From Alloalcanivorax xenomutans (GTDB lineage: Bacteria > Pseudomonadota > Gammaproteobacteria > Pseudomonadales > Alcanivoracaceae), in the NCBI RefSeq assembly GCF_900217905.1, contig NZ_OBMO01000008.1, positions 1-64,000 on the forward strand: DNA of 64,000 nt, read 5' to 3'. Both the position numbers and the translations under genes were made by a program. Positions 6,783 through 41,111 of the stretch are shown here, in pieces. How positions within the stretch are numbered: the stretch's first letter is position 1; every line of letters begins with the position of its first letter. A model generated the notes under the pieces. The model worked only from the letters and a program-made list of their open reading frames with translations. It was not told the origin of the DNA and did not search any database.

Positions 6783-6822
6783 CCGATTCGCAGGTTTGTC
6801 ATTTTTTTCGAGAGGTTTGCCC

Positions 6823-12453: not shown

Positions 12454-12479
12454 CCAACCCTGCTCAGCTACAAGGTTGA

Positions 12480-12553: not shown

Positions 12554-12611
12554 GTGGCTTCGTGGTTCTGTCCGAGGGAAGCTGTCGAGCCTGAACGGAC
12601 TGGCGTTTTGA

Positions 12612-20268: not shown

Positions 20269-20284
20269 CAAAACACTCCTTCCT

Positions 20285-22780: not shown

Positions 22781-22783
22781 TAA

Positions 22784-22804
22784 TATCAATTCCCATTCTC
22801 ATCC
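22784..22804 (-). promoter_or_regulatory. Possible Fur-like hexamers before hasR
   Basis: On the minus strand GAGAAT-GGGAAT-TGATAT lies just before the hasR start. Each hexamer is a partial match to the Fur repeat GATAAT. It overlaps where a ribosome binding site should be, so it may be chance. The 209-bp gap to hasS could also hold a HasI-dependent promoter; I see no certain one. Confidence 0.3.
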
Positions 22805-22989
22805 TTGTTCATCTGTGATGACGGGCGAGATCGGGAAAGGGACAGTGATTGGGGAAAATTTTGCTCGGACGCCAGACCTTTTTGCGCGAGCAGTCCACGG
22901 ACCAGCACTGCCCCATAATTGTGGAATGGCACCTCGGCACGCCAGTTCGCTGCCCAGGCAGCTTCCCACAGACTGGACTACGAAGCCGT

Positions 22990-23961: not shown

Positions 23962-23964
23962 GCT

Positions 23965-24876: not shown

Positions 24877-25659
24877 TCAACATCCTCTAAAGTGAGGCCG
24901 GCGTTTTTCCAGAAAGGCGCTGGCGCCTTCGACGAAGTCCTCGGAGGCGAACGTTTTCGCCGCGGTTTCCCGCTCCACCCGCAGGCGCTCCACCAGATCC
25001 ACCGGCAGCGCGGTGAACAACCGCTTGATCGTGGCCTGAGCCAACGGCGGCCCGGCGGCGAGACGGCGTGCGTGTTTCAGTGCGGCTTCCAGAGCCGCGC
25101 CCTGCTCCACGCGCACGTCAGCGAGACCGATATGAATCGCTTCGTCCAGTGACACTTCCTCACCGGTGAGCAGAATCCTCCGCGCCCGACCAGCGCCAAC
25201 GCGAAAAGGCAGCGCCCACCAAAGGGCGCCATCCGGCGCCGCGCCAACACGAATCTGCGCGGCGCAGAAACGGGCGCCCTCCGCGGCCACCATCAAATCA
25301 CAACAGGCGGCCAGCCCCAGACCGGCACCGAAAGCGGGACCTTCCACCGCTGCTATATACAGTTTCTCCGACGTCAATATGCGTTGCAGCAAAGGGCCGC
25401 CCGCTTCCAGACGCTGGCGGATTTTTTCCACGTCGCGGATACGGCGCAGCGCATCCAGGTTACCGCCGGCGGAGAACACACCCCCCGCCCCGGTCAACAC
25501 CATGACGCGCAGGCTATCGTCGTTTTCAAACCGCTCCATGGCTTCCAACAGTCCCTCACGCACGCCGGGCGCGCCCATGGAGTTTCGCATGGCATAGGCG
25601 TTGATGGTGACCACCGCCACTGCTTCCCGGGTTTCCATCAATACCGCTTGTTCCGTCAT
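24877..25659 (-). CDS. Enoyl-CoA hydratase/isomerase family protein
   Basis: A 260-residue crotonase-fold enzyme, likely hydrating an enoyl-CoA. The oxyanion-hole motifs are VLTGAGGVFSAGGNLDAL and [20 protein letters not shown]; the acidic catalytic positions are not standard (RVGAAPDGALWWALP), so a variant hydratase or isomerase is possible. ATG 25659 lies 5 bp after the upstream acyl-CoA dehydrogenase, so it ends a three-gene operon. The longer start at 25713 overlaps that gene. Confidence 0.88.
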   Translation of the reverse strand: MTEQAVLMETREAVAVVTINAYAMRNSMGAPGVREGLLEAMERFENDDSLRVMVLTGAGGVFSAGGNLDALRRIRDVEKIRQRLEAGGPLLQRILTSEKLYIAAVEGPAFGAGLGLAACCDLMVAAEGARFCAAQIRVGAAPDGALWWALPFRVGAGRARRILLTGEEVSLDEAIHIGLADVRVEQGAALEAALKHARRLAAGPPLAQATIKRLFTALPVDLVERLRVERETAAKTFASEDFVEGASAFLEKRRPHFRGC

Positions 25660-25663
25660 CGTC

Positions 25664-26773
25664 TCAGGCCTCCATACGTTCGAGATAAAGCTGACCGTTA
25701 TACGTGGCGTCACCGAGCAGCCGGCTCAGTGCATTCACGCGTAACAGATAACGGCCGATCCCCAGTTCCAGTGTCATGCCGATGCCGCCGTGCATCTGAA
25801 TCGCCTCCCGGCATACGCGATCACCCACGGGTACCGCCAGCGCCATTGCCGCGAAGGCGTCGGCGTGGGACGGTTCGTGGATCAGACTTTGTGCCGCACC
25901 GGACACCAGCGAGCGCAGCATTTCCAGATCCGCATGCAGATCGCTGGCACGATGTTGCAAAGCCTGAAAGCGGGCCAGTTTGGTTCCGAACTGTTCGCGT
26001 AATCGCAGATAGTCCAGAGTACGTTCCAGGGCGCCCTCGCACGCGCCCAGAGTTTCCGCCGCCGCGGCCAGGGCACCCTGCGCCAGCGCCGCTTCCAGCG
26101 CCGCCCGCGCCTCCGCCCCGCGGGCCAGCACCGCCTCTTCCGGTAGCAAAGCATCATTGAAGGTGAGCGTCGCCAGGCTGCTGCCGTCAAAGGCCGCGTA
26201 AGGCGCCACCGCCATTCCTTCTGTCTCCGGCGCCAGCAGCACCAGCGCGAGCTCACCATCCAACCGGCAGGAAACGATGAACGCGTCGGCACCAGCGGCA
26301 TCCATCACCGCTCTTTTTCGGCCATTCAACATATAGCCCGGCTGGCATCGCTGCCCCTCTATTGCCGTGTGATGGTGGTCATACCCGGCCCCATCTTCCA
26401 ATGTGGCCAGTGTCAGAGTTGCCTCGCCGGCGGCCAACCGTCGCAACCATTGATCCCGCAAGGCACCCCTCGGCGAGCACGTCAACGCGGTGCCGGCCAG
26501 AATCAACGACGAGAGAAAAGGCGAGCGCAGTTGGTCCCGGCCAAAACGACGGCACAACACCGTCAGCTCCACCGGCCCCATACCGCCACCGCCGTGCTCC
26601 TCGGGTAGCGCGATCCCCAACAGACCCAACTCAGCCAGCTCATGCCACAAGGGCAGGCGGGCCACGTCGGCGGACAGCAGCGCCTGATCCCGGCGCGGGT
26701 CCCATTGCTTTTCCAGCAACCGTGCCACCGTGTCTTCGATGAGTTGCTGCTCTTCGGTCAACATAAATTCCAT
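25664..26773 (-). CDS. Acyl-CoA dehydrogenase family protein (small-subunit type)
   Basis: A 369-residue flavoprotein-like dehydrogenase (MEFMLTEEQQLIEDTV, LGIALPEEHGGGGMG, REAIQMHGGIGMTLELGIGRY). Acyl-CoA dehydrogenases form the trans-2-enoyl-CoA with FAD. The catalytic Glu region is weak in this copy. ATG 26773 has GAGG 6 bases upstream; GTG 26785 overlapping the upstream stop is the alternative. Paired acyl-CoA dehydrogenases, one larger and one more divergent, are typical of the heteromeric steroid and bile acid side-chain enzymes, a possible parallel here. Confidence 0.88.
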   Translation of the reverse strand: MEFMLTEEQQLIEDTVARLLEKQWDPRRDQALLSADVARLPLWHELAELGLLGIALPEEHGGGGMGPVELTVLCRRFGRDQLRSPFLSSLILAGTALTCSPRGALRDQWLRRLAAGEATLTLATLEDGAGYDHHHTAIEGQRCQPGYMLNGRKRAVMDAAGADAFIVSCRLDGELALVLLAPETEGMAVAPYAAFDGSSLATLTFNDALLPEEAVLARGAEARAALEAALAQGALAAAAETLGACEGALERTLDYLRLREQFGTKLARFQALQHRASDLHADLEMLRSLVSGAAQSLIHEPSHADAFAAMALAVPVGDRVCREAIQMHGGIGMTLELGIGRYLLRVNALSRLLGDATYNGQLYLERMEA

Positions 26774-26781
26774 GGGATACC

Positions 26782-27975
26782 TCACAGATCGAGCACGTGC
26801 TTGGCGATGATATTGCGCTGCACTTCATTGGAGCCGGCGGCGATGGCCGGCCCTCGCAGGTAGTAGCGGGACTCCGCCACATAGCGGGCATCACCGCCAT
26901 CGTTCAACAGGTCCCGGGGCAAGCCGTCATAGGCGGCATCGGCGGCGAGCGCATCGATACCGGCGATATCCATGATCGCTTCATCCACCGCCTGGTTAAT
27001 GGCCACCCCTTTCAGGTTGAGTGATGAGGCGAAGACACCAATACGGCCATCGCGAATCAGCATTTCCAAACCGCGGCGAGTGGCGAATTCCAGAGCCTTC
27101 ACCTGTACCGCCACCTCGGCGATGCGCGCTTTGAGATCAGCTCTTTGATAAAGCGCTCCGGATTCGTCCTGGTTGGCTTTGGCCAACGCCAGCAGACGCC
27201 CCAGCTTGCGCCGCGCCTCGGCGTGGCGGGAGGTGGCCAGCCGCTCGTGTTCCAGCAGAGCTTTGGCCGTGGTCCAACCGGTGTTCTCCTCGCCGATACG
27301 TTGCTCCACCGGCACTTTTACATCTTCCAGCAACACCTGATTGAGCAAGTGCGCACCATAGAAATGATGGATGGGCTCGACACTGACCCCTTCGCTACGC
27401 ATATCCAGCAGCAGGAAGGAAATACCTTTCTGCTTCTTGGCTTCGGGATCGGTGCGAACCAGACAGAACATCCAGTCGGCATAGTGGGCATAGCTGGTCC
27501 AGATCTTGCCGCCGTTAACGCGATAGTAGTCCCCTTCACGAACCGCCCGGGTCCGCAGTGCCGCCAGATCCGACCCGGCGGAAGGTTCCGAATACCCCTG
27601 ACACCACCATTGATCCATATTCAGGGCACCGGGCAGAAAACGCGCCTTCTGCTCCTCGGTACCGTATTCCAGCAAGATCGGCCCCAGCATGCGGGTATTG
27701 AAAGGCGGTATGGATGGCGCTCCGGCCAAAGCCATCTCTTCCTCGAAGACAAATCGCTTTTGCAGACTCCAGTCCGTGCCACCCCAGCGTTTCGGCCAAT
27801 GCACCGCGCCCCAGCCCCTGGCAACCAGCTTGCGTTGCCAGGCGATCGTCTCGTCACGGCTGACGTCCCTGCCCTGCGCCACTTTCAGGCGAATAGACTC
27901 TGGCACTTCACTGGCCACGAACTCGCGAATCTCCTGTCGGAATCGGATTTCCTCCGATCGGCTCAGATCCGTCAT
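26782..27975 (-). CDS. Acyl-CoA dehydrogenase family protein
   Basis: A 397-residue acyl-CoA dehydrogenase, first gene of the operon. N-terminal domain RFRQEIREFVASEVPESIR; FAD/substrate motif WWCQGYSEPSAGSDLAALRT; NGGKIWTSYAHYADWMFCLV; C-terminal region LRGPAIAAGSNEVQRNIIAK. ATG 27975 follows AGGAG; the extension to 28296 only translates the family B repeat region. The partner gene overlaps its end by one codon region (GTGA), suggesting a heterodimer. Substrate unknown; the neighbouring catabolic genes suggest an unusual acyl-CoA. Confidence 0.92.
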   Translation of the reverse strand: MTDLSRSEEIRFRQEIREFVASEVPESIRLKVAQGRDVSRDETIAWQRKLVARGWGAVHWPKRWGGTDWSLQKRFVFEEEMALAGAPSIPPFNTRMLGPILLEYGTEEQKARFLPGALNMDQWWCQGYSEPSAGSDLAALRTRAVREGDYYRVNGGKIWTSYAHYADWMFCLVRTDPEAKKQKGISFLLLDMRSEGVSVEPIHHFYGAHLLNQVLLEDVKVPVEQRIGEENTGWTTAKALLEHERLATSRHAEARRKLGRLLALAKANQDESGALYQRADLKARIAEVAVQVKALEFATRRGLEMLIRDGRIGVFASSLNLKGVAINQAVDEAIMDIAGIDALAADAAYDGLPRDLLNDGGDARYVAESRYYLRGPAIAAGSNEVQRNIIAKHVLDL

Positions 27976-28296: not shown

Positions 28297-29433
28297 TCAG
28301 AACTTCAACTGGGCGCCGATGGACAAAGCCCACGGATCTCGCCCGGCCAACGTGCCCACTTTGTCGCCGTGGGCATAATCCACGCCTCGGTAGGCGGCGT
28401 TGTCACCGTTTTTAGTCACCGTGTACATGGCATGCAGCAGTACCGAATCACTGAGGGAATGGAATACACCAACGCTGTATTGATCCGCTTCATCGTCTCC
28501 GGCCTCCGACTCTTCAGCATGATTCCATTGCGCAGCCAGATTCCAACGTGGCACTACCGTATATTGGGCTTGCAATCCATAGGCTTCACGATCAAGAGAA
28601 GCGAAATCATCCGGACTGATATCCTCGTAGATAGCACCAAGAGTCAAAGCCGAGAATTTATATTTGGCGAACACACGCCAAGCATCGAGGCTCCCCGTGG
28701 TCGCAAAATCGGAGTAATGAATATAGGCACTGCTCAACTGCAGTCCGCCCCCCTTCCAGTCCAACCAAATGCTTGAACTGTCGCGATCATTATCATCCGC
28801 GCCATTAACAGAGCCGGCCTGATCAGCCGCATACTGCAAAGCCACGTTGACACCAGCCAGGCGGAACTTCCAGTTCAGGCTGTTAGCGCCGAACAAATCC
28901 AGTCGGCCGCCGGCGCCCGCCGAGGGTGCGCCGAGAATAGCGTGGGAGTCAGCCACCGTGGTGTTGAAATAACCGAGATACGACACTCCCAGGTTCTTGA
29001 ATGGCGTGTTGATGCGTCCCACCAGGAAAGTACCTACTGGTGTACCCAATCCCAGAAAGCTGTCACGGGTGGTCCAGACGTCATTACCGTCGGTGTCATC
29101 CATGTCAACCTGCTGCTCGTACTGCCAGAGGAACGTATAATCCTCGTTGTAAGGCACCTCACCGCGAAAGCCAATCATCGTGGTGTTGCTGGAGACACCG
29201 ATTCCGCCTTCGGAAAGCAGCGGCGAGGTGTCCGCTTGCGCATCACTGACATCGGAGTCCACGTAGTCCACCGACATGCGCAGCGCCCCATACAACTCCA
29301 TTTTCTTTTTAATCGCCTGTTCCGGATGAATAACGTCTTCCAGAACTTGAATATCCGCAGCCTGTGCTGACAGTGGCAGCAAAGCCATCAGCAGACCGGA
29401 GCCTGCCGCAGTGAAAAGAGGACGGATTGTCAT
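28297..29433 (-). CDS. Gram-negative porin (Porin_4-like)
   Basis: A 378-residue outer membrane protein with signal peptide (LLMALLPLSAQA) and a beta-barrel of alternating strands ending in Phe (SIGAQLKF). KKKMELYGALRMSVDYVD, TFLVGRINTPFKNLG and the C-terminal strand fit general porins of the OmpC/Omp32 type. ATG 29433 has GAGGAG upstream; the longer start at 29544 only reads the repeat. It follows the sulfatase/TRAP block on the same strand and may admit its substrates. Confidence 0.9.
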   Translation of the reverse strand: MTIRPLFTAAGSGLLMALLPLSAQAADIQVLEDVIHPEQAIKKKMELYGALRMSVDYVDSDVSDAQADTSPLLSEGGIGVSSNTTMIGFRGEVPYNEDYTFLWQYEQQVDMDDTDGNDVWTTRDSFLGLGTPVGTFLVGRINTPFKNLGVSYLGYFNTTVADSHAILGAPSAGAGGRLDLFGANSLNWKFRLAGVNVALQYAADQAGSVNGADDNDRDSSSIWLDWKGGGLQLSSAYIHYSDFATTGSLDAWRVFAKYKFSALTLGAIYEDISPDDFASLDREAYGLQAQYTVVPRWNLAAQWNHAEESEAGDDEADQYSVGVFHSLSDSVLLHAMYTVTKNGDNAAYRGVDYAHGDKVGTLAGRDPWALSIGAQLKF

Positions 29434-29450
29434 TAGTTTCTCCTCGAATC

Positions 29451-29531
29451 GTTTTTTGTGGTCCACCGTCCATGGCGACCACCCTGCGGGCCGCCGCTGG
29501 CGCGGCGTCAAAAATCGCTCCCGGCGATTTG
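29451..29531 (+). repeat. Family B structured repeat, copy 4
   Basis: Stem 1 is GTGGTC (29458-29463) with GACCAC (29477-29482). Next is CCC-TGC-GGG, then stem 3 CGCCGC (29492-29497) with GCGGCG (29502-29507), then stem 4 AAATCGC (29512-29518) with GCGATTT (29524-29530). It sits between the porin start and the stop of the metallo-beta-lactamase-fold gene; on the minus strand stem 4 plus TTTTTG could end the upstream operon. Confidence 0.8.
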
Positions 29532-29566
29532 TTTGTTGTTTCATTAGTACGGGTCAAAACCCGGGG

Positions 29567-30814
29567 TTATCTCTCGTTTAGTCGCGTCGCCACCGAACGA
29601 TAGATTTGCGCGGAGACAAAAGACGGAGAGGCCTCCGCCAGCTGTTCCAGAATTTCCGCCTTCAGTGCGCGGGCACGAGCTCCGATTTCGTCCTGGCTAC
29701 GCTCCGGAGACAGAAGATCCAGTACATGCAAAGCCAGTTGCGGCTGGCCTTCCTCCCGCTTGCGCCGCGCCACCGTCAGCACCTGTTCGGGGTCACTGAT
29801 TGCCTCGCGTAGCGCGGCCGCCACCGCATCAGGCTCCCCCGGATGCAGTTGGGTGGCATTGCGGTCCCACCAGCCGTTCTCCGAGCGCCAGATATCGCGC
29901 ACGATGTACTCCGGCATGCCGTAGCTGGGCTTCATCAACGGATGGCCAAAGATCTCATCCGGGTAGGCGATGTCGTGCAGGATCTCCGCTTCGGTCATAC
30001 CGCGATTCATCCGCTTCACGGTTTCCTCTCGCAGATAGCGCAAAGCTTTGATGGTGAGGGTCATGGCTTCACGAACGGCTTCCCGGCCTTCAATCGGCCT
30101 GCCGAATTCGGGAATCAGCATTTCCGGCTCCAGCGCCAGCAGCCTTTCCATGGTTTCCGCCCAGCGCACCGGATCACGCAGCGTGCGCAAGGGTGTGCCG
30201 ATATTGGGAATGGATTTGATGAAGGCCGGTCCGGCATAAAGGATCTTCTCCTCCGGCAACCACAACGCCATGGCGTCGTCGGTTTCCGAAGGCGCTTCCA
30301 GGATCTCCACCTGACGGTCACCACCATCGATGACGTGGCGTTCGCGGAAGGTGATGTCCGGATAGGTGAACCATTTTTCCGGCGCGGTTTCCGGAAATTG
30401 GGAATTGAACTGCAGCCCATTGAGATGCGCCTGCAAGCCCCAGGTCTCCTGGTAGCGGTCATAGCGGCACGGCAGGTTGGCCTGAGCCACCATTTTCGGC
30501 CGCGGATGACCGCGCTCGGCGGCGTCCGCCAGCCAGCTGTGCGCACCGTGGTTGTAACCCAGATGACCGTGGCTATAGACAATGGCCAGCACGGGCTTAT
30601 CAGTCAGTTGGCGAACGTGTTCGATCATCGCCCGGGTGATCTTGCCGCCGGGGCCGGAGTCCGTGATCACCACGCCATTGGCGGTTTCCACCACTACACT
30701 ATTGCCCTGCCCTCCGAGCAAATGGACACCGGGTGCGATCGTCTTGAGGTCCTTGTTGGCGAGCAGAAATTCGCCAAGGATCGGCGATTCCTTCTTGTTA
30801 CTGTTGCCCGTCAT
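29567..30814 (-). CDS. Alkylsulfatase-like MBL-fold protein lacking canonical metal ligands
   Basis: A 415-residue protein with the MBL fold (GVHLLGGQGNSVVVETANGVVITDSG) and an alkylsulfatase dimerisation region (MTEAEILHDI...YGMPEYIVRDIWRSENGWWD). SdsA-type enzymes hydrolyse alkyl sulfates. Here the metal motif HxHxDH reads SHGHLGYNHG (Asp and His lost), ETDDH reads ETDDA, and the late PGHGP reads PEFGRP. The paralogue at 38942 keeps all three. It may therefore be a non-hydrolytic or differently metallated homologue. No signal peptide. It follows the DUF1254 gene after about 100 bp on the same strand. Confidence 0.82.
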   Translation of the reverse strand: MTGNSNKKESPILGEFLLANKDLKTIAPGVHLLGGQGNSVVVETANGVVITDSGPGGKITRAMIEHVRQLTDKPVLAIVYSHGHLGYNHGAHSWLADAAERGHPRPKMVAQANLPCRYDRYQETWGLQAHLNGLQFNSQFPETAPEKWFTYPDITFRERHVIDGGDRQVEILEAPSETDDAMALWLPEEKILYAGPAFIKSIPNIGTPLRTLRDPVRWAETMERLLALEPEMLIPEFGRPIEGREAVREAMTLTIKALRYLREETVKRMNRGMTEAEILHDIAYPDEIFGHPLMKPSYGMPEYIVRDIWRSENGWWDRNATQLHPGEPDAVAAALREAISDPEQVLTVARRKREEGQPQLALHVLDLLSPERSQDEIGARARALKAEILEQLAEASPSFVSAQIYRSVATRLNER

Positions 30815-30912
30815 GACATATCTCCTGCGTTGTCACCGGTGGCGGGCACAGGGGCGCCCGTAACGGCCACCGGTGGTGCCGTTGGAAAAAGGGAAAACTG
30901 GTGATTCAGCGT

Positions 30913-32193
30913 TTACAGACGCTCGACGCGCGGTAGCCTGTAACGGCCTTCCATCAGATCCGCCTTGGGCATGTAACCTCGGAAAAACAGGGCGAAGGGC
31001 CCCTCGTTGGCAGGCAGCCAGTTGCTTTCGCGATCCGCGCCGGGACTGCGCGCACCGATCCAGAGATCCAGGGAGCCATCCTCGTTGTATTGCAGACCGG
31101 GACTACGATCCCCCACGGCGTAACGACGCAACGGGGTATCGGCGAAAAAGAACTGCCCGTCGTCCATGGCTTCGTACAGCGTCAGGGACCAGAACGAATT
31201 CAACGGCGGCATGGCGCCGGCGGGGAAATGCAAACGGTAGTTCTGGTTGCCATCGAACAGCCCCTCTTCGGCGTCCCCTTCGGCCCGCATATAGATGGCT
31301 TCTTCCAGCGGTAAGGCGCCCAGGCCACCCACCGATACCACGGCGCGCAACGTATAATTCTGGCCATAATCGCCATTGCGCATGCTCGGATAAGTCCAGC
31401 CGCCAATGGCGCTGCGGCGCGCGCGCTGGATCTGGACCAGCCAGTTCTTGGCCTCGTCCACACCCTGTTCAATCGCTTCCGCCTGCTCCTGATCGAAAGC
31501 CTCCGCGTCGAACACCTGGTCCGGGCCGATACCCAGAGCACGAATCTGCTCCAGAATCAGGCCGTCGGTGACCGGAGGCGGCTCACGGCGCAACAGGCGA
31601 TTGGCGGTGGCCAGATACTCACGCCAGCCGGCAGAACGCTGTACCGGATCCCCCGGTGCCACATCCTCGGAGGGCGCGCCCTCATGGACGAACAAACCGT
31701 CCTGCACGGCGCAGGCCGCCGCCAGATCGTCCGGACCGTCCACTAGAATACGCGCCAGCGCCCAGACTCTGGGCGTCGGTGCGCGGACCACATTGGTGGC
31801 GTCCTCCGGCACCGCCTGATGTGGACCGACCAGGGTATAAACCCCGCCGTTATTCCCGGTGGTACGGGTACCGAGAATGTCGAAGTTGTTGGTGTACATG
31901 TCCATGAACGCCAGCGAGAAGTAGCGCTCGCCGGTGGCCGGCACGGTAATCTTCACCGGCCCTTTGGAAAGATCCAGCCAGGCATCGGAGTACAGGGTGT
32001 CGTTATTCGGCGTGGTTACCCAGCGGCTGCGGTGCGTCAGCAGCTTGCGGGCATGGTTGAAGACGTTGGCCCCGGCTCCCATGCGCCATTTACGGGTGGT
32101 TTCCATGATCACCAACGGAACCGTGTAGATGTACGCGCGCTTGGCGGCGGACTTCAGCTCGGCCGGCGACACCGGCGTAAATTCACTGCTCAT
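30913..32193 (-). CDS. DUF1254/DUF1214 domain protein
   Basis: A 426-residue protein. The N-terminal half matches DUF1254 (RAYIYTVPLVIMETTRKW, TPNNDTLYSDAWLDLSKGPV, YFSLAFMDMYTNNFDILGTR); the C-terminal half matches DUF1214 (NYRLHFPAGAMPPLNSFWSLTLYE, YNEDGSLDLWIGARSPG). No biochemical function is established for these domains. No signal peptide is seen, which is unusual, as many relatives are exported. Lies in the TRAP/acyl-CoA synthetase operon, so it may act on the imported compound. Confidence 0.88.
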   Translation of the reverse strand: MSSEFTPVSPAELKSAAKRAYIYTVPLVIMETTRKWRMGAGANVFNHARKLLTHRSRWVTTPNNDTLYSDAWLDLSKGPVKITVPATGERYFSLAFMDMYTNNFDILGTRTTGNNGGVYTLVGPHQAVPEDATNVVRAPTPRVWALARILVDGPDDLAAACAVQDGLFVHEGAPSEDVAPGDPVQRSAGWREYLATANRLLRREPPPVTDGLILEQIRALGIGPDQVFDAEAFDQEQAEAIEQGVDEAKNWLVQIQRARRSAIGGWTYPSMRNGDYGQNYTLRAVVSVGGLGALPLEEAIYMRAEGDAEEGLFDGNQNYRLHFPAGAMPPLNSFWSLTLYEAMDDGQFFFADTPLRRYAVGDRSPGLQYNEDGSLDLWIGARSPGADRESNWLPANEGPFALFFRGYMPKADLMEGRYRLPRVERL

Positions 32194-32297
32194 GTTGCTT
32201 CCTCTTACTCTTTTTCAAAGGGCACCTCCAGACCGCCCGGACTCAATGCCGGCAGCAAGACTCCGGGAGGATGTCCAGGTTATTTTTGCCGCGTGTC

Positions 32298-33332
32298 TTA
32301 ACGGGCTTCCGGCGGCACCATCGCATCCGGCACGTCCAGGCCGATTTCCCGGTAGTAACGCAAGGCCCCGGCCTGCAGCGGCGTGTTCACCTGATTAAGT
32401 GCGTTCTCCAGCGTGATGGTGTCCATGAACTTGGCGGCGTCATGGAACGTCTGCAGATTCTCGAAAATGGTTTTGGTGATCTGATAACCCAGTTCAGGGT
32501 CCAGATCCTTCTGCGTGCCCAGGGTGACCCAGGTACCAACGGTTTTAACCGGGCCTTCGTTGGTCTGGTTTTCGCCATAAATACCGGCGGGAATTTCCGC
32601 AACGGTGCGGCCGGGCAACGACATCACCTGTTTCATCGGCTCGCTATCGAAAGCCTCCTCGGGGATCCCCAGGAAACGAATCTTTTGCAGCAGCACTACT
32701 TGCTCGATGGAGGCCGACGGCAACTGGGTCGGACCGATATACATATCCACCTGACCGTCCTGGAAGGCCTGCTGCCCGGAGTTCCAGTCCAGCTTCGCCA
32801 TCTCATAATCCTCACCCGCCTTGTAACCGGTCGCGCCTTCAATGATCGACAAGGCGACCAGAGTGGCGGCGCCACCCGGCGGGCCGATGAAGACACGACG
32901 GTCCTTGATGTCCTTGAGAGAACGGATGCCCGATTTTTCATGCACCATGATGTGGTACGGTCCGAGCGGGAAGCTCATGATGGTACGAATGTTCTTGAAC
33001 AGCTCCGGCGCGCTGGACATTTTTCTGAACATACCCGTGCCGGTGCTCATGAAGTGATTGATGGACTGGCTGCCGATATACAGATCAACCTGCCCCTTCG
33101 CCGCGTCCAGGGTGGAGCGGGTGGACGCCATGCTGGAGGTCATGTTGATGCGAACCGGCAGGTGCTTTTGCAGCACGGATTGCAGAGTCACCGAGAAGAC
33201 GTAAGGCGATGATCCCGGCTGAGCGGTATGCATGCGCAGGTTGGTATCAGCATTGGCATAACTGGCCAGCGATGCGGTTGCCAGGAGTACCAGACCACTC
33301 GCCCAGCGGATCAAAGGGTGTTTCAGTTTCAT
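32298..33332 (-). CDS. TAXI-family TRAP transporter solute-binding protein 1
   Basis: A 344-residue periplasmic binding protein. Signal peptide (LVLLATASLASYANA) followed by the TAXI domain (GSSPYVFSVTLQSVLQKHL, GPPGGAATLVALSIIEGATGY, DWNSGQQAFQDGQVDMYIG). It would hand a carboxylate-type solute to the TRAP permease. About as long as, and clearly paralogous to, the protein at 35495, with the acyl-CoA synthetase gene between them. Two binding proteins for one permease suggest two ligands or a recent duplication. Confidence 0.92.
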   Translation of the reverse strand: MKLKHPLIRWASGLVLLATASLASYANADTNLRMHTAQPGSSPYVFSVTLQSVLQKHLPVRINMTSSMASTRSTLDAAKGQVDLYIGSQSINHFMSTGTGMFRKMSSAPELFKNIRTIMSFPLGPYHIMVHEKSGIRSLKDIKDRRVFIGPPGGAATLVALSIIEGATGYKAGEDYEMAKLDWNSGQQAFQDGQVDMYIGPTQLPSASIEQVVLLQKIRFLGIPEEAFDSEPMKQVMSLPGRTVAEIPAGIYGENQTNEGPVKTVGTWVTLGTQKDLDPELGYQITKTIFENLQTFHDAAKFMDTITLENALNQVNTPLQAGALRYYREIGLDVPDAMVPPEAR

Positions 33333-33389
33333 TCCAATCTCCCGATTTGTTGTTTTATCTAGCTGTTACTTGATTCCGGGCGCCCTATA

Positions 33390-35495
33390 TCAGCGCCCGA
33401 TGACCAGGGCATCCAATGCCACCACGCCCTGCCCCTCGGCACGCACGCGCACCGGATTGATGTCCAGACTTTCCAGACTGTCCCCGGCGGCCACGGCGAA
33501 GTGCGACACTTTAACCAGCAGATCGGCCAGGGCGCCGATGTCCGCCGGCGGCTGCCCGCGGACACCGTCAAGAATCGCTCTACCGCGCAGCTCGTTGATC
33601 ATGTCCATGGCCATGTCCCGGTTCAGCGGCGCGCTGCGGAAGCTGACATCCTTGAGCACTTCCACCAGTACGCCGCCGAGCCCCAGCATCACCACTGGTC
33701 CAAAGGCAGGATCCCGCTGCACGCCGACGATGCATTCCACGCCCTGTTCTTCCATAGGCGAGAGCAGCACGCCATCGATGCGTGCCTCCGGGCAGGCGCG
33801 GCGAGCCGCGGCGAGCACCTCATCGCTGGCCTGGCCAACGGCCTCGGCGCCACGCAGGTTCAGGCGCACACCACCGATGTCGGATTTGTGCAGAATGTCG
33901 GGGGAAGCGATTTTCGCCACCCAGACGCGGGAGTCTTGTGCGACACGGACCTGGGCCTCGGCCCCATCGGCGACCAGATGGGATTCCGGCACCGGCACTC
34001 CGAAGTCGGCCAGCAGTTGGAAGCTGTCCGCCTCCGAATAACTGCCGGTGCGCAACGTTACGCTGGCCCCGCGCGAATCCACCGGCACCGCCGGTTTTTG
34101 CTGTTGCCGGGCAAACCAGGCCAGGGCGGACAGCGCGCGAATCGCACGGGTCGGGTCCTCGAAGGCAAGACAGCGATTACGTTCCAGCAAGGCGCGCACC
34201 GGCTCCTTGAATACCGATACGGCACAGAACACCCGATCCGGATACCGGTCGCGAACCCGGCCGATTTGCTCGGCGATGTGCTCGCCCATGGGGCCTTGAC
34301 CAGCCGCCGCCAGGAAGGCGGCGACCAGATGGTAATCACCTTGCTCGAGCATGATGTCGAGGCTGGTCTCGAACAGACCGATGTCGTTGGTGATCTGTCC
34401 GGTGATGTCCACCGGATTACGTGGCGCGGCGAACGGAACCAATTCCCGGATGCGGTCCTGAGCTTTTTGGTTAAGCTCTGGCAGCGCCAGCCCTTCATCG
34501 GCGGCGGCGTCCGCCATCAGCACGCCGGCACCGCCGGACACCGTGAACACACCGAGGTTTTCCCCGCCCGGGATACCCGCCACGGAAAAGGCGTAGCCCA
34601 CATCGAAAAACTCTTCGATGGAATAAGCCCGATACACGCCGTACTGGCGGAACACCGCATCAAAGACCGCATCTTCGCCGGCCAGCGCGGCGGTATGAGA
34701 CGCGGCGGCCTGGGCACCGATATCGGTGCGCCCCACTTTGGTCATCACCACCGGCTTGCCAGCGGCGCGGGCCTCGGCCAGGGCGGCTTCCAGTTTCCAG
34801 CCGTCGCGGCAACCTTCCATATAGCCCAGGATCACATCGGTGTCCGGATCCCGCGCCAGCCAGCTCAGGCAATCGGCGAAATCCACGTTGCCTTCGTTGC
34901 CGGTGGTGATCCAGTAGCTCAACCCCAAACCGCGTTGACGGGCCAAGGTAAAGGCATAGGCGCCATAGGCACCGCTCTGACTGATCAGGCCGATACGCCC
35001 TTTTGGCGTCACGCCTTGCCCCACCACGGGTGAGAACGTCGCGAACACTTTCTCGGAAAGATTCATGAAACCGAGACAGTTCGGTCCAAGAATACGAACA
35101 CCGGCCGCGCGGGCACGAGCCATCAGGGCTTCCTGTGCCAGGCGCCCTTCCTCGCTGATCTCCGCGAAGCCGGATGAAAACAGGACAATACCTTTGACGT
35201 CGGCGGCAATGGCTTCGTCCACAGCCTGATCGACCAGCGCCGCCGGCACCGCGACGATGGCCAGATCCACTTGCCCGGCTACTTCACCGATGCGGGCGTA
35301 GGCCTTAAGCCCCTGCACTTCCGAGGCCTTCGGGTTGATCGGGAAAATCGGCCCTTCGAAGCCTTGGGCGAGCAGGAACGCGATCGGCAGGCCGCCGATT
35401 TTCGTCGGCGTGGCGCTGGCGCCGATGACCGCCACCGAGCGGGGCCGGAACAGACGATCCAGATCTTCGATAGTGTGTTCTGATACTGCGCTCAT
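33390..35495 (-). CDS. ADP-forming acyl-CoA synthetase (acetate--CoA ligase family)
   Basis: A 701-residue single-chain NDP-forming acyl-CoA synthetase. Order: CoA-binding Rossmann domain (SVAVIGASATPTKIGG, about 15-105), succinyl-CoA ligase-like region with the phospho-His in SHTAALAGEDAVFD (about 265), then a C-terminal ATP-grasp domain (about 480-700). It converts an acid, ATP and CoA to acyl-CoA and ADP. It starts 1 bp inside the stop of the TAXI gene upstream (TAATG) and lies between two TAXI genes, so it probably activates the imported acid. Substrate unknown. Confidence 0.9.
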   Translation of the reverse strand: MSAVSEHTIEDLDRLFRPRSVAVIGASATPTKIGGLPIAFLLAQGFEGPIFPINPKASEVQGLKAYARIGEVAGQVDLAIVAVPAALVDQAVDEAIAADVKGIVLFSSGFAEISEEGRLAQEALMARARAAGVRILGPNCLGFMNLSEKVFATFSPVVGQGVTPKGRIGLISQSGAYGAYAFTLARQRGLGLSYWITTGNEGNVDFADCLSWLARDPDTDVILGYMEGCRDGWKLEAALAEARAAGKPVVMTKVGRTDIGAQAAASHTAALAGEDAVFDAVFRQYGVYRAYSIEEFFDVGYAFSVAGIPGGENLGVFTVSGGAGVLMADAAADEGLALPELNQKAQDRIRELVPFAAPRNPVDITGQITNDIGLFETSLDIMLEQGDYHLVAAFLAAAGQGPMGEHIAEQIGRVRDRYPDRVFCAVSVFKEPVRALLERNRCLAFEDPTRAIRALSALAWFARQQQKPAVPVDSRGASVTLRTGSYSEADSFQLLADFGVPVPESHLVADGAEAQVRVAQDSRVWVAKIASPDILHKSDIGGVRLNLRGAEAVGQASDEVLAAARRACPEARIDGVLLSPMEEQGVECIVGVQRDPAFGPVVMLGLGGVLVEVLKDVSFRSAPLNRDMAMDMINELRGRAILDGVRGQPPADIGALADLLVKVSHFAVAAGDSLESLDINPVRVRAEGQGVVALDALVIGR

Positions 35496-36526
35496 TAACG
35501 TGCCTCCGGTGGAATCAAGTGATCCGGAAGGTCAACGCCGGCCTCCCGGTAATAACGAACCGCGCCGGCGTGCAACGGGGTTCTCATCTCCGTCAGAGCA
35601 TTCTCCAGGGTGATCTCTTCCATGAACTTCGCGGCGCCATGGAAAGCAGACAGGTTCTCGAACAAGGTTTTGGTGATCTGGTACACCAGCTCTTCATCCA
35701 GCTCCTTGCGGGTACCCAGGCCAGCCCAGGAACCGATGGTTCTTACGTCCGTCTCGTTGGTTTGATTTGCACCGTAAATACCGGCGGGGATGGTGGCCCG
35801 GGTCCGCCCGGGAAGGGCCATGATTTTCTTCATCTGGTCGGATTCGAACGCGTCATCGGGAATCCCCAGGAAACGGACTTTCTCAAGCAATGCCATCTGC
35901 TCCATCGAAGCGGACGGTAGCTGCGTTGGCATTACCAACATGTCCACATGTCCATCCTGGAAAGCCTGCAGACCAGAGTTCCAATCCAGTTTTGCCAGCT
36001 CATAGTCCGTGCCAGCCTCATAGCCGGTGGCGCCTTCGACAATGGAGATGGCCACCAGAGTAGCCGCGCCACCCGGCGCGCCGAGAAAGATACGACGCCC
36101 TTTGATGTCCTCGAGGGAGCGAATACCGGATTTTTCGTGGACCACGATATGGTAGGGACCGGCCGGGAACGTCATGATCTGTCTGACGTTCTTGTACAGT
36201 TCTGGCGCCGTTTTCATTTTGGCGAACATACCCGTGCCGGTGCGCATGAAATGATTGATGGACGGGCTGCTGATAAACAGATCCGTCTGCCCGCGCGCCG
36301 CATCCAGCGGCGAACGCGGCCCGGTAACGCCGGCCGTCATATTGATCTTCACCGGCAGTTTCTTCTGCAGAACCGACTGCAAGGTAACGGAGAAAACGTA
36401 GTATCCCGAGCCGGGCGTGGCGGTCTGCATACGCAGATGGCTCTCCTGCGCCTGCGCGGCTTGGCCCAGCGCCAGGGTGGCGGTCAGTACACAGGCCGCC
36501 CGTTTTATCGTTCTCAATCCAAACAT
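35495..36526 (-). CDS. TAXI-family TRAP transporter solute-binding protein 2
   Basis: A 343-residue periplasmic binding protein. Signal peptide (CVLTATLALGQAAQA), then GSGYYVFSVTLQSVLQKKL, LGAPGGAATLVAISIVEGATGY and DWNSGLQAFQDGHVDMLV, nearly parallel to the gene at 32298. It directly follows the TRAP permease, as is usual for a cognate binding protein. Overlaps the acyl-CoA synthetase start by 1 bp. Confidence 0.92.
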   Translation of the reverse strand: MFGLRTIKRAACVLTATLALGQAAQAQESHLRMQTATPGSGYYVFSVTLQSVLQKKLPVKINMTAGVTGPRSPLDAARGQTDLFISSPSINHFMRTGTGMFAKMKTAPELYKNVRQIMTFPAGPYHIVVHEKSGIRSLEDIKGRRIFLGAPGGAATLVAISIVEGATGYEAGTDYELAKLDWNSGLQAFQDGHVDMLVMPTQLPSASMEQMALLEKVRFLGIPDDAFESDQMKKIMALPGRTRATIPAGIYGANQTNETDVRTIGSWAGLGTRKELDEELVYQITKTLFENLSAFHGAAKFMEEITLENALTEMRTPLHAGAVRYYREAGVDLPDHLIPPEAR

Positions 36527-36606
36527 TCTTTTCTCCTTTTGGGGGCTCTGCTGAGCCCCTTACTTCCAGGGACTCCGAGCCCCTCTCTCTTCTACTTATC
36601 TGTCTT

Positions 36607-38511
36607 TCACTTATCCGCCGGTGCGCAACCAAGCCAACGCGGCCTGCGGTGCGGCATGAAATCAAACAACAGGATAAGCAGCGCCAGAGCCAGACCAACC
36701 AGTTCCACCGAGGTGCCGCGCGCCATCAGCAATGCCGCCACCACCAGTCTCAGAATCCGCGCCAGCATGCCCAGCCGCTCACCGCCAAACCCTGCGAATC
36801 CCGTGGTTACCGCCCACACCACCAGAGTCAGGCGCACCACGCCCCAGGCCAGATCCAATGGATCAAAGCCCTCCACGATCAACAGCAGCGACGGATTGAA
36901 TACGAACAGGAACGGCACCAGAAATCCGACCAGAGTCAGACGTACGGAGAGCATGGCCACTTTCATCGGGTTGGCCTCGGCCAATGGCGCCGCTGCAAAG
37001 GCCGCCAGGGCCACGGGCGGCGTGATGGCGGATAGCACCCCGAAATAAAGAACGAACAGATGCACGGAAAGCAGCGGCACATCAAAGCTGGTCAGCGCCG
37101 GCCCCATGACCAAAACGATGATCAGGTAGGCCGGCAAGGTCGGCATGCCCATACCGAGAACCAGGCAGCCCAAGGCGGTCAATATCAGACTCAACAGCAA
37201 GCTGCTCTCGCCCAGCCCGGCCACCGCTTGCGCGAAGCTCAGTCCCAGACCTGTGAGGTCCATGCCGGCGATGACGATACCAATGGCCCCCACCGCGATC
37301 ATGATGCGCGAGCCGGCCACGCCCCCCTTTGCCAAGGCGCCAATCAATGCCCAGGGACGGCGGCGAATCTCCGGATTGAGGAAGCCAAAGACCATTGCCA
37401 CCAGCGTCGCCCACACCCCGGCCATGGCCGGTGAGCGGCCCGCGGCCAACACCAGAATCACCGTTAGCACCGGCGCCACGAACATCAACGACCGCAGCCA
37501 ATCGTCCTTGGTCAGCACCGGTAATTCATGTTCCGGAGTGGGCTTGATGCCAAGCCGGCGAGCCTCGTAGTACACCGCCGCGAACAGAGCGATCACGTAG
37601 AACGCCGCCGGCAATAACGCCGCCACGCAAATCAGCAGATAAGGCGTGCCGGTAAGCTGCGCCATCATGAACGCGGCGGCGCCCATTACCGGCGGAATCA
37701 CCTGCCCACCGGTGGACGCGGCGGCTTCAACGGCACCGGCGAAGGCGGGGCTGAAACCGCGTTTCTTGATCATCGGAATGGTGAACGCGCCGGTCCCCGC
37801 CACGTTGGCGGTGACACTGCCTGACATGGTGCCGAACAGCATGCTGGCAAAGATCGCGGCGTGGGCCGGACCACCGGGCAGACGGCCAGTGACGCGAATG
37901 GACATACGCACCAGCGCCGGTCCGGCGCCAGTAGCCTCAAGCATGACACCGAAGATGATGTAGATGAACAGCAACTCGATCATCACCGCCACCGGCGTGC
38001 CGAATACGCCGCTGAAGCCGTACCACATTCCCTGCATGATCTGATCCAGGGAAAAACCGGCGTGGCGCAAGGCGTCAGGCAACAGGTCACCCCACAGGCA
38101 ATACAGCAAGGTCACACCGGCGAACAAGGACAGTCCGAGGCCGAACTCCCGTCGGGTCAGTTCAATGACCGCCACCACGCCCACCAGTGCGATCAACTGA
38201 TCGGTGCGGCTGTAGTCAACCAGCATGTTTTCCATATCACCGGCGAAGGCCAGGAAACGGGCAACCGCCAACAGAATCGCACCGACCAGGACCAGGTCGA
38301 TGAGCCAGAACAAGGTGCGAATCAATGCGGTACGTGGCGGATTCACCACCACCAGCGGCTTGACCAGTACGGCGACGAGAATACACGCAGCGAACGTCAA
38401 CGGACGCTGATAGCTCGGATCAAAGATTCCGAAAAGAGACGTATAAATACTGATGGCGGCCAGAGCCACGGCAATCGCCAGGCCAAGCCGACGACTTGAA
38501 TCTGTGAGCAC
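36607..38511 (-). CDS. Fused TRAP transporter permease (DctQM-type)
   Basis: A 634-residue inner membrane protein with many hydrophobic helices. The first about 160 residues correspond to the small DctQ-like subunit; the rest is the large DctM-type subunit (MLFGTMSGSVTANVAGTGAF, GQVIPPVMGAAAFMMAQLTG, LGMGMPTLPAYLIIVLV, FGVLSAITPPVALAAFAAA). Fused permeases normally work with TAXI binding proteins. Uses sodium-driven import. Starts with GTG at 38511 behind a GGGAGA site. First gene of the minus-strand catabolic block. Confidence 0.93.
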   Translation of the reverse strand: MLTDSSRRLGLAIAVALAAISIYTSLFGIFDPSYQRPLTFAACILVAVLVKPLVVVNPPRTALIRTLFWLIDLVLVGAILLAVARFLAFAGDMENMLVDYSRTDQLIALVGVVAVIELTRREFGLGLSLFAGVTLLYCLWGDLLPDALRHAGFSLDQIMQGMWYGFSGVFGTPVAVMIELLFIYIIFGVMLEATGAGPALVRMSIRVTGRLPGGPAHAAIFASMLFGTMSGSVTANVAGTGAFTIPMIKKRGFSPAFAGAVEAAASTGGQVIPPVMGAAAFMMAQLTGTPYLLICVAALLPAAFYVIALFAAVYYEARRLGIKPTPEHELPVLTKDDWLRSLMFVAPVLTVILVLAAGRSPAMAGVWATLVAMVFGFLNPEIRRRPWALIGALAKGGVAGSRIMIAVGAIGIVIAGMDLTGLGLSFAQAVAGLGESSLLLSLILTALGCLVLGMGMPTLPAYLIIVLVMGPALTSFDVPLLSVHLFVLYFGVLSAITPPVALAAFAAAPLAEANPMKVAMLSVRLTLVGFLVPFLFVFNPSLLLIVEGFDPLDLAWGVVRLTLVVWAVTTGFAGFGGERLGMLARILRLVVAALLMARGTSVELVGLALALLILLFDFMPHRRPRWLGCAPADK

Positions 38512-38941
38512 TCTCCCTCTCCCGCGGACATCGAAGTCCGCCTTGGTTTTGTTGTGTGCTCATCAGATCATGCCCAATTAATGACTGTCAATTAGATAGT
38601 CGTTATCACCGCAGAAAGAATGACAATTTATTCATTGCCCTATTCTACTCCCTCAGGAATCGGTGAACGGCCGTTCAAGATGTAAATTCTCATTTCCTTC
38701 GAACCATAACCATCTGTTTTTATTGAGTTTAACCACATAACAAGACACCTGTAACGCACAGGTGTCGGCGCGTAAAATCACACCTCGAAGGCATCTCGAC
38801 TCATGTCTTTATCCTTTGGATTGAAGCCGTCCCTCCAAAAAAATAATGTGGGAACATGAATTCTGTCTATCTTTTCTAATGTTCCGGCATTACTTTAGGT
38901 AACACTCTGTTCCTGATTTTCACCCTCGGAGGAGACCTCAA
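38512..38941. promoter_or_regulatory. Divergent promoter region with palindrome TGAACGGCCGTTCA
   Basis: This 430-bp gap is markedly AT-rich and separates the TRAP operon (minus) from the MBL-fold gene (plus). It holds a perfect 14-bp palindrome TGAACGGCCGTTCA at 38664-38677, of TetR-operator size, and a GGAGGAGA ribosome binding site for the gene at 38942. I see no supported reading frame. The TetR gene at 40280 is a candidate binder. Confidence 0.55.
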
Positions 38942-40258
38942 GTGATCAACGAAGAACTAAGAACCATCGGCGATGCCTGCTGGGAGCGGTTTGATTTCGG
39001 CCGCGACTGGAACCGTCATCTGCATGGCAGTCAGGTCATACCGATCAACGACCACCTGGCTTACATCGCGTCCAAAGGCGTGGTGGGCAACGTTACCGTT
39101 CTCAATACCGGAAAGGGCCTGGTGGTGTTCGACAGCGGCAGCCGCAATACCGCCGCCGCCATTCATAAGGCGATCCGCGCCTGGTCGGACCAGCCCATCC
39201 GTCATGTCGTCTATACCCACGGCCATCTGGACCACGCCTTTGGCACACCACTGTTCGACCAGGAAGCGCAACAGGCCGGGGAACCCAAACCCGAGGTCAT
39301 CGGCCAGGCCAACATCCGCCGCCGTTTCGAGCGCTATCAGAACAGCGCTGGATGGAATGCACGCATCAACGGCCGGCAGTTCAAGGTGGCGGGCTTCCAT
39401 TGGCCGGAAGAATACCGCTACCCGGACCGCTTCTATGAAGAGCAGATGATTCTGGAATGTGGCGACTGCCAGGTGGAACTCAACCACGGCATGGGCGAAA
39501 CCGACGACCATACCTGGAGTTGGATTGCGCAAGATCGCACCGTTATCACCGGGGATTTCATCATCTGGGCGGCGCCCAATGCCGGCAACCCGCAAAAGGT
39601 TCAGCGCTTTGCCCACCAATGGGCGCAGGCCTTGCGCGCCATGGCGGCAAAGAAGCCGGAAGTGCTGGTGCCCGGCCACGGACCGGCGGTGTTCGGTGCC
39701 GACCGTGTCGCCACGTTACTGGACGACACCGCCACTTTCCTGGAGACCATCCATGACCAGACTTTGGAGGGCATGAACCAGGGCTTGCCCCTGGCCGATA
39801 TCGTGCAACAGGTCACTCTGCCCGAGGGCCTGCTTGACAGACCCTACCTGCATCCCACCTACGACGACCCCGAGTTTCTGATTCGCAACGTCTGGCGGTT
39901 GTACGGCGGTTGGTATGATGGCAATCCGGCGCATCTGAAACCAGCGCATCCGGACACGTTAAGCGGCGCCCTGGCGGAGCTCTGTGGTGGAGCACAAGCG
40001 CTGACGCAGGCCGCGGCCAGATACCTTGACCAGGGTGATCTGCGCCTGGCCGGCCACCTCAGTGAAATGGCGGTGCGCGCGGAACCGGATAATCAGGAGG
40101 CTCACCGGGTTCGCGCGGCGGTGAATCAGGAACGGGCCAAAGCGGAGACCTCGCTGATGGCCAGAGGCATTTTTACCGATGCCGCCAATGCCTCACTAAA
40201 GGCGCTGGGCGACGATGGTGACCCGGGTTATCCCGGCCGCCGGGTTGGTATTGGTTGA
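38942..40258 (+). CDS. Alkylsulfatase-like MBL-fold hydrolase
   Basis: A 438-residue protein with an intact MBL metal site: THGHLDHAFG (HxHxDH), METDDH-type motif MGETDDHTWSW, and VPGHGPAVF. The C-terminal part has the alkylsulfatase dimerisation region (MNQGLPLADIVQQVTLPE, YDDPEFLIRNVWRLYGGWYDG) and a helical tail. It probably hydrolyses sulfate esters or related esters in the cytoplasm, as no signal peptide is seen. GTG 38942 has GGAGGAGA 8 bases upstream. It is divergent from the TRAP operon and followed by a convergent TetR gene. Confidence 0.88.
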   Translation: MINEELRTIGDACWERFDFGRDWNRHLHGSQVIPINDHLAYIASKGVVGNVTVLNTGKGLVVFDSGSRNTAAAIHKAIRAWSDQPIRHVVYTHGHLDHAFGTPLFDQEAQQAGEPKPEVIGQANIRRRFERYQNSAGWNARINGRQFKVAGFHWPEEYRYPDRFYEEQMILECGDCQVELNHGMGETDDHTWSWIAQDRTVITGDFIIWAAPNAGNPQKVQRFAHQWAQALRAMAAKKPEVLVPGHGPAVFGADRVATLLDDTATFLETIHDQTLEGMNQGLPLADIVQQVTLPEGLLDRPYLHPTYDDPEFLIRNVWRLYGGWYDGNPAHLKPAHPDTLSGALAELCGGAQALTQAAARYLDQGDLRLAGHLSEMAVRAEPDNQEAHRVRAAVNQERAKAETSLMARGIFTDAANASLKALGDDGDPGYPGRRVGIG

Positions 40259-40279
40259 CGGGTAGGGATACCGGCGGCG

Positions 40280-41056
40280 TTATTGATCGTCGCCGGTGCC
40301 GGCTTTCTGTATCATGGCGATGTCCGTATAGGAAGGCAGGTCATACAACTCGGAGGCTCCACGAATCGCTTCCAGTGTTTCCGGCGATAACGGCGCATCG
40401 TACATGGCAGCGCTGCAGGCAATGATGTCCTCAATCCGAATCCAAGCCTCCTCGCGACGAAAGCTCTCGCCTTTTTCCGACTGAATCCGCTCAATCGTCG
40501 CCATGCCATTGGTGTGCATGAATAACATACTGAGGAAACGTTGCTCGACGATCGCCTTGGGCAAATAGGGTTTGGCCTCCTTAAGCGCATCCAGACACTT
40601 TTCCATACCCGCGCCATACATTTCGTTAAAGTGAAGCCAGGTACTCCGCTCCATACGCAATTGCACCAAAAAACGCAGGTAATATCCGGGTTCCTGTGTG
40701 CCAAACAAATAACGGGCCAGGGGCATCATCCCGCAGCGCATAATCTGTTCCGTGGACAGAGGCTTACCGGCCGCCTGACGGCGGGCCTCCTCGAACATGG
40801 CATGGCGGTCCGCGTCTATCGGCTTGGAGCGCATCGCCAGAATGGACTCAATGATCGCTTCCCGGGAACCAAAGTAATAGTGGATCGCCGATTCGTTTTT
40901 CTGCCCGGCTTCCTCACGAATCTGGCGCAGAGAAGCCCCCTGCACCCCATTCATGGCGAAAACCTTCTCCGCCGCCAGCGTCAACTCCAATTTGGTTCCG
41001 GAAATCTCTTCCGCTTTGCTCTTTTTACGACGCGTGGGTTTCCTTGCTGCCGCCAT
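40280..41056 (-). CDS. TetR-family regulator of the catabolic block
   Basis: A 258-residue regulator with a basic N-terminal tail (ARKPTRRKKSKAEEISG), helix-turn-helix (LTLAAEKVFAMNG, ASLRQIREEAGQKNESAIHYYFG, about 27-70) and a long ligand domain. It lies 3' to 3' with the alkylsulfatase-like gene. The inverted repeat at 41078-41111 just before its start is a likely autoregulatory site; the palindrome at 38664 may be another. Ligand unknown. Confidence 0.88.
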   Translation of the reverse strand: MAAARKPTRRKKSKAEEISGTKLELTLAAEKVFAMNGVQGASLRQIREEAGQKNESAIHYYFGSREAIIESILAMRSKPIDADRHAMFEEARRQAAGKPLSTEQIMRCGMMPLARYLFGTQEPGYYLRFLVQLRMERSTWLHFNEMYGAGMEKCLDALKEAKPYLPKAIVEQRFLSMLFMHTNGMATIERIQSEKGESFRREEAWIRIEDIIACSAAMYDAPLSPETLEAIRGASELYDLPSYTDIAMIQKAGTGDDQ

Positions 41057-41077
41057 CCTTTTCCACCCTCAGCACAA

Positions 41078-41111
41078 GTTAATGGAACAATACTAACATC
41101 ATTCCATTAAC
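41078..41111. promoter_or_regulatory. Inverted repeat upstream of the TetR gene
   Basis: GTTAATGGAA (41078-41087) and TTCCATTAAC (41102-41111) are perfect 10-bp arms separated by 14 bp. The site starts 22 bp before the TetR start codon, over the expected promoter. It fits a dimer or double-dimer TetR operator. Confidence 0.65.

Follow-up and report, generated by a model that had tools for sequence, protein, structure and literature searches.

Type III alkylsulfatases have a metallo-beta-lactamase fold with a binuclear metal site, and SdsAP is one of the described members. In SdsAP, one zinc is held by Asp196, His197, His367 and Glu322, and the second by His192, His194, Glu303 and Glu322; the protein also carries a 41-residue signal peptide (PMC5426288). 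The canonical family has the motif HxHxDH; whereas the related protein studied here, termed MBL1, has HxHxGYN at the same place. MBL1 is encoded in Alloalcanivorax xenomutans (host genome G000, 4.35 Mb), within the window analysed, i.e. the 64,000 nucleotides at positions 1 to 64,000 of contig NZ_OBMO01000008.1. It lies in a gene block (28297-41111) together with transport, coenzyme A (CoA) activation and DUF1254 genes. The block probably represents one form of a recurrent catabolic module for organic acids, in which MBL1 is without the binuclear zinc site. This reading builds on the gene content and layout of the block, the replaced metal ligands, the single clade formed by the MBL1-type proteins, and the neighbours that recur beside them.

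The gene block itself is real. Every gene that the first-pass annotation had named was found there, confirmed by an open reading frame (ORF) and a Pfam, NCBIfam or profile match, although the ORF starts in the scripted calls are often too long. Seven genes form a same-strand run on the minus strand in the order TRAP, TAXI2, ACS, TAXI1, DUF1254, MBL1 and porin, with gaps of up to about 133 bases and, at the tightest junction, an overlap of 1 base. The presumed operon begins with a fused TRAP permease (36607-38511; TIGR02123, 509.7 bits, cut-off 320.65), followed by the solute-binding protein TAXI2 (35495-36526; TIGR02122, 162.9 bits), a fused ADP-forming acyl-CoA synthetase (ACS; 33390-35495; PF13549, PF13607 and PF13380), and a second solute-binding protein TAXI1 (32298-33332; TIGR02122, 141 bits, cut-off 84.35), which is a paralogue of TAXI2 (69% identical). 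Then come the DUF1254/DUF1214 protein (30913-32193; PF06863 4.2e-44, PF06742 4.5e-31), the alkylsulfatase-fold protein MBL1 (29567-30814; PF14863 5.3e-31, PF00753 3e-15), and, as the last gene, a Porin_4 outer-membrane porin (28297-29433; PF13609 1.3e-35). A terminator-like hairpin with a T tract (28145-28125, minus strand) is found 3' of the porin gene by consensus match only. It has nine pairs, eight of them G-C, and the highest G-C pair count among the 31 terminator-like sites listed; the scan is weak by itself, as shuffled sequence averaged 16 sites.

MBL1 consists of a metallo-beta-lactamase domain (PF00753) and an alkyl sulfatase dimerisation domain (PF14863), with no other Pfam match in its 415 residues and nothing close to a cut-off among the NCBIfam models. 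Its best PDB matches by sequence are alkylsulfatases, at about 20% identity. An AlphaFold model (pLDDT 91.7, built from 47 sequences) was compared with solved structures by Foldseek, and the first 13 chains were all Pisa1, SdsAP, SdsA1 or YjcS (query TM-score 0.79-0.83). The alignment showed that MBL1 retains H82, H84 and E177, which correspond to His192, His194 and Glu303 of SdsAP; whereas G86, Y87 and F237 replace Asp196, His197 and His367, and P196 replaces the bridging acid. By its sequence, MBL1 thus lacks four ligands of the type III alkylsulfatase binuclear site, and keeps H82, H84 and E177 of the other half. Because only two His and one Glu of this 'histidine' site are left, the protein should bind one metal or work differently. 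Moreover, the Pfam scan revealed no SCP-2-like C-terminal domain, for which 415 residues leave no space. The N-termini of MBL1, MBL2, DUF1254 and ACS are not signal-like; whereas those of the TAXI proteins and the porin are, as judged by eye. MBL1 is probably not a sulfatase.

The altered motif is a trait of a whole family. The family alignment has 127 rows, including 89 of the HxHxGYN form, 37 of the DH form, and one odd row. H82, H84, G86, Y87, N88, E177 and E236 are invariant in all 89 GYN rows, in which position 237 is F (85 rows) or W (4 rows) but never H, and position 196 is never D or E (0/89). In the DH rows, D86, H87 and H237 are present in 37/37, and position 196 is D or E in 35/37. 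The loci had been gathered by two peptide patterns, one of which includes part of the motif; however, 34 of the 86 collected GYN rows fail this pattern and yet carry the GYN form. In an 82-row tree, the GYN form is a single clade (support 100/100) and is sister to the clade that holds MBL2. This grouping survives removal of the motif columns (SH-aLRT 99 in a quick tree). Since the form is monophyletic, it reflects one loss that has been kept since, and the rows are not independent events. Two tandem MBL1-type paralogues were also observed in L051, L052, L053, L054, L057, L069 and L039, the last being plasmid pBB2 of Cupriavidus necator N-1. Both copies are of the GYN form where aligned, and they split into two sub-branches of the tree.

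MBL1-type proteins are uncommon. A profile search found that 6 of 398 sampled Pseudomonadota genomes pass E 1e-60, the host included; their best matches are all 1.3e-187 or better, compared with 6.8e-86 for MBL2. Four of the passing genomes lie beyond the genus; three of these have DNA in common with other loci of the set, and L169 alone is new. It contains MBL1, DUF1254 and TctC genes, a CoA-transferase, both acyl-CoA dehydrogenases and a porin gene. The host alone passes E 1e-55 among 369 genomes of its class, and close relatives in 293 genomes of its order are confined to its genus (G160, 96%; G043, 76%), with no MBL1 match at E 1e-20 in a third congener, G182. The host MBL1 and its counterpart in A. 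balearicus MACL04 share 98% identity.

The company of MBL1 was followed in 79 loci. They come from a single scan of genome contigs, which was limited to the best 80 of 125 relatives; 28 of these loci are shorter than 21 kb. Many neighbour groups obtained by clustering were opposite-strand shadow ORFs, which were ignored by judgement. ACS relatives occur in 39/79 loci and DUF1254 relatives in 37/79, mainly in Alcanivoracaceae, Burkholderiales and Actinomycetia. By group, the counts are 5/5 for both in Alcanivoracaceae, 30/42 for both in the betaproteobacterial group (including two metagenome-assembled genome (MAG) loci of unassigned class), and 4/5 for ACS and 1/5 for DUF1254 in Actinomycetia. 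A CoA-activating gene (ACS, class III CoA-transferase or AMP-forming ligase) is present in 54 loci, a gene for one of the transporter kinds sought in 55, and both in 49. The transporter differs by lineage, being of the TAXI-TRAP type in Alcanivoracaceae, with TctC-type binding proteins in Burkholderiales and MFS proteins in Actinomycetia. Compact sets on a single strand are found repeatedly in Alcanivoracaceae, and versions with different transporters occur in Variovorax, Comamonas and Delftia. The block is not fixed in every part: among five other Alcanivoracaceae loci, MBL2 was found in three, and a search of L046 and L047 found a single TAXI gene in each.

Canonical loci served as controls. 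From the order of the host, 22 of 27 listed DH-type loci (427 kb) were taken; no relatives of ACS, DUF1254, TAXI, TctC, TRAP or MFS proteins were detected in them, and AMP-forming ligases occur in 2/22. Fisher's test of MBL1 against DH-type loci gave 4e-6 for ACS and 1e-5 for DUF1254, with relatedness ignored. These control genomes come from other groups than most MBL1 loci, and therefore genome-matched canonical loci were taken. Eight SdsA1-type loci in seven MBL1-block genomes (the host included) have neither ACS (0/8) nor DUF1254 (0/8); whereas the MBL1 loci of the same genomes have ACS in seven and DUF1254 in six. The DUF1254 protein of the window is the sole PF06863 match in the host genome, and 10 of the 11 PF06863 matches in the seven genomes lie inside the block by coordinates. 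Six of the seven genomes were chosen for holding the MBL1 block, so this number shows that other PF06863 copies are scarce, not how frequent the block is. The block is thus more than a chance assembly, given that similar sets recur in other groups and that canonical alkylsulfatase-family loci are without ACS and DUF1254.

These data suggest the following scheme. The porin and the TAXI-TRAP transporter (TctC-type proteins in Burkholderiales, MFS proteins in Actinomycetia) would carry a carboxylate across to the cytoplasm, where the ADP-forming ACS would convert it to the CoA thioester. Inside the cell, MBL1, often with DUF1254, might then act in a substrate-specific way on either the acid or the CoA ester, and the dehydrogenase pair with the hydratase might feed the product into beta-oxidation. 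We infer the order of the steps, their cytoplasmic location and the link to beta-oxidation. For example, signal-like N-termini are found on the TAXI proteins and the porin and not on MBL1, MBL2, DUF1254 or ACS, and therefore import of the carboxylate would precede its processing inside the cell. Uptake of an organic anion and its activation with CoA had already been proposed by the first-pass annotation, and the gene families and the recurring neighbours support both steps.

The link to beta-oxidation, also proposed earlier, is plausible, and that with an acyl-CoA dehydrogenase pair is supported. The genes concerned are all on the minus strand, and encode a large-type, PimC-like acyl-CoA dehydrogenase (26782-27975; PF02770 and PF02771; TIGR03204, 351 bits), its small-type partner (25664-26785; PF00441 1.5e-20), and an enoyl-CoA hydratase/isomerase (24877-25659; PF00378 2.2e-47). 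They lie beyond the terminator-like site, and therefore probably form a separate, neighbouring unit. Relatives of both dehydrogenases are found near MBL1 in 13/79 loci, which belong to Alcanivoracaceae (five), Cupriavidus (six), Paraburkholderia, and one gammaproteobacterial MAG.

Several observations weigh against a common module. The dehydrogenase pair is beyond the terminator-like site here and near MBL1 in just 13/79 loci. ACS and DUF1254 are both missing from the alphaproteobacterial loci (0/5 each) and from those of Acidimicrobiia and one actinobacterial MAG (0/6 each), and are nearly so from the delta/myxobacterial loci (ACS 0/13, DUF1254 1/13); three other MAG loci also have neither (0/3 each). 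Many of the 79 loci are closely related (Variovorax, Cupriavidus), and the counts are thus not independent. TctC genes occur in two of the eight matched control loci, and TctC is common in Burkholderiales. The ACS proteins are also diverse. Among 11 of the betaproteobacterial group, eight are 47-54% identical to the window ACS and three 36-45%; these three Burkholderiales block proteins are little or no closer than the host's own second ACS (43%), and four actinobacterial block proteins are just 28-35% identical. Finally, a TauD-family gene adjoins MBL1 in L103.

The TauD family includes sulfonate and alkyl sulfate dioxygenases. Oxygenase genes of the TauD, P450, PhyH and Rieske kinds were observed near some MBL1 loci without ACS (L103 11320-12216; L107 7407-8975 and 12062-13393; L079 3724-4608; L119 6332-7516). 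Such neighbours may hint at the substrate chemistry, and since they occur in some ACS-free loci, MBL1 may not have the same role in every lineage. Another arrangement was seen in L048, L049 and L050 (Minwuia, Kordiimonadales), where TetR, TAXI and MBL1 genes stand in a row. In L048, an AMP-forming ligase and an acyl-CoA carboxyltransferase are directly upstream, and the carboxyltransferase is also present in L050. This arrangement is another version of the module. Naming the substrate from the neighbours was tried; the neighbours vary by lineage and give no single answer.

The divergent gene of the block encodes MBL2 (38942-40258, plus strand; PF14863, 130 bits), an alkylsulfatase-like protein of 438 residues. 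It is separated from TRAP by an intergenic region of 430 bases (38512-38941), in which an inverted repeat at 38744 was also listed as terminator-like. MBL2 keeps the HxHxDH motif, the E residue, the bridging acid and the last His by alignment and row counts, and may be a hydrolase. It probably has no SCP-2-like domain, for which 438 residues leave no space; its family searches covered NCBIfam and PF14863. MBL2 relatives were found in 6/79 MBL1 loci, which comprise Alcanivoracaceae and three actinobacterial loci; an obligate MBL1-MBL2 pair was set aside on this count. Tail to tail with MBL2 is a TetR-family regulator gene (40280-41056, minus strand), with relatives near MBL1 in 8/79 loci. In the nearly identical G160 block, the TetR (L035 17596-18393) is just 68% identical to that of the window; whereas the eleven other matched proteins are 95-99% (ten) or 94% (one) identical. 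A swap of the regulator is possible.

The first-pass annotation had suggested a sulfated or ester-linked organic acid that is cleaved. In the sulfated version, the sulfate ester of an organic acid would be taken up, desulfated by MBL1 and/or MBL2, and then activated and beta-oxidised. Fold and dimerisation domain do place both proteins in the alkylsulfatase family, MBL2 retains the canonical metal motif, and the TauD-family gene of L103 might point in the same direction. However, the second metal site is gone in 89/89 MBL1-type rows, and MBL2 accompanies MBL1 in only the six loci. Neither protein has, by eye, a signal-like N-terminus, compared with the 41-residue signal peptide reported for SdsAP (PMC5426288), and neither is long enough for an SCP-2 domain. 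Moreover, a separate canonical alkylsulfatase gene is located elsewhere in the host genome and also in each of six further MBL1-bearing genomes. Desulfation by the block is therefore unlikely. No sulfate exporter or sulfonate genes were noticed among the named neighbours, most neighbours having never been named. An ester substrate is still compatible with the alpha/beta hydrolase relatives in 6/79 loci, in one of which (L054) the hydrolase was named by Pfam.

It might also be supposed that MBL1 is a pseudoenzyme, i.e. a structural or regulatory partner that forms, for example, a heterodimer with MBL2 via the dimerisation domain. The joint loss of four metal ligands would fit, as would the sister clades of MBL1 and MBL2 and their adjacency in Alcanivoracaceae and the three actinobacterial loci. 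Such a role nevertheless seems improbable, for MBL2 is absent from 73/79 loci as searched, the other site keeps all three of its ligands in 89/89 rows, and the new Y87, N88 and E236 are equally fixed. A gathering of general catabolic genes that share regions but have no substrate in common is very improbable: the company does vary by lineage, and types of transporter, CoA-activating gene and regulator are exchanged, but the rare PF06863 has 10 of 11 copies of seven genomes inside the block, ACS and DUF1254 occur in 0/8 matched canonical loci, and compact same-strand sets recur.

The organic-acid module thus remains the preferred reading. Newly recognised here are the MBL1 clade and the genes that accompany it. 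More tentatively, MBL1 could represent an unrecognised enzyme class with a single two-His/one-Glu metal centre, perhaps with iron and not zinc, which might catalyze a non-sulfatase reaction (e.g. a lyase, decarboxylase or oxygenase step) in concert with DUF1254, either on the organic acid after its import or on the CoA ester. If so, a function of DUF1254 would be found too. The recurring neighbours place MBL1, DUF1254 and the binding-protein ligand in a common context. A metal site lost throughout the clade beside one that is retained would also be a clear case of the metallo-beta-lactamase fold changing its chemistry; whereas the database label 'alkyl sulfatase dimerization domain-containing protein' for MBL1-type proteins suggests the wrong one. 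A full-text literature search, which reached few subscription journals, gave no recognised account of the gene set or the GYN variant, and returned no paper for PF14863, for DUF1254 with alkyl sulfatase, or for alkyl sulfatase with tripartite tricarboxylate. The available passages of a survey of the superfamily (PMC7785958) do not describe the GYN variant, and PMC6107682 is among the papers that name DUF1254/DUF1214 or the alkyl sulfatase dimerisation domain.

Other features were also observed in the window. A TonB-dependent receptor gene is followed by a putative esterase gene (6736-9818). Genes for an ABC exporter, an HlyD-type protein and an outer-membrane efflux protein stand in a row (11116-15745), like a type I secretion system, and the long ORFs beside them (15682-17619 and 18541-20271) have no Pfam match. 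An ECF sigma factor, a FecR-type regulator and a TonB-dependent receptor are encoded in a row at 20285-24486, a layout resembling regulated uptake systems for metals or siderophores.

Comparison with known systems showed both similarities and differences. MBL1 shares the metallo-beta-lactamase and dimerisation domains with the type III alkylsulfatases SdsA1, SdsAP, Pisa1 and YjcS; whereas it is without four zinc ligands belonging to one site, without the SCP-2 domain and, by eye, without a signal-like N-terminus. The ACS has CoA-binding, succinyl-CoA ligase-like and ATP-grasp_5 domains in one chain, the same domain set as the fused ADP-forming enzymes 8wzu (4-hydroxybutyrate--CoA ligase, the nearest solved relative, 360 bits), 9y43 (3-hydroxypropionate--CoA ligase, 337 bits) and 7cm9 (dimethylsulfoniopropionate (DMSP) lyase, 227 bits), and is far below the NCBIfam equivalog cut-offs for named substrates. 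A DMSP lyase-like role was considered on account of the last match, but the 4-hydroxybutyrate--CoA ligase is closer. The large dehydrogenase scores 351.1 bits with the PimC model TIGR03204, under the cut-off of 623.85, and falls outside PimC proper; as in the PimC/PimD-type pairs, large and small acyl-CoA dehydrogenase genes are adjacent. Among PDB entries, the large dehydrogenase is closest to 4x28 and 6wy8/6wy9, which presumably act on steroid CoA esters. The DUF1254/DUF1214 protein is alike in sequence and fold to VPA0106 (3u07) and VPA0735 (2p3y, 3vb9), whose entries are titled uncharacterised, as are all confident fold matches of its structure model (pLDDT 88.3). Like other TAXI-TRAP transporters, that of the window has TIGR02122 binding proteins and a TIGR02123 fused permease, all over cut-off; it has two paralogous binding proteins for one permease, and in other MBL1 loci TctC-type or MFS genes stand in its place.

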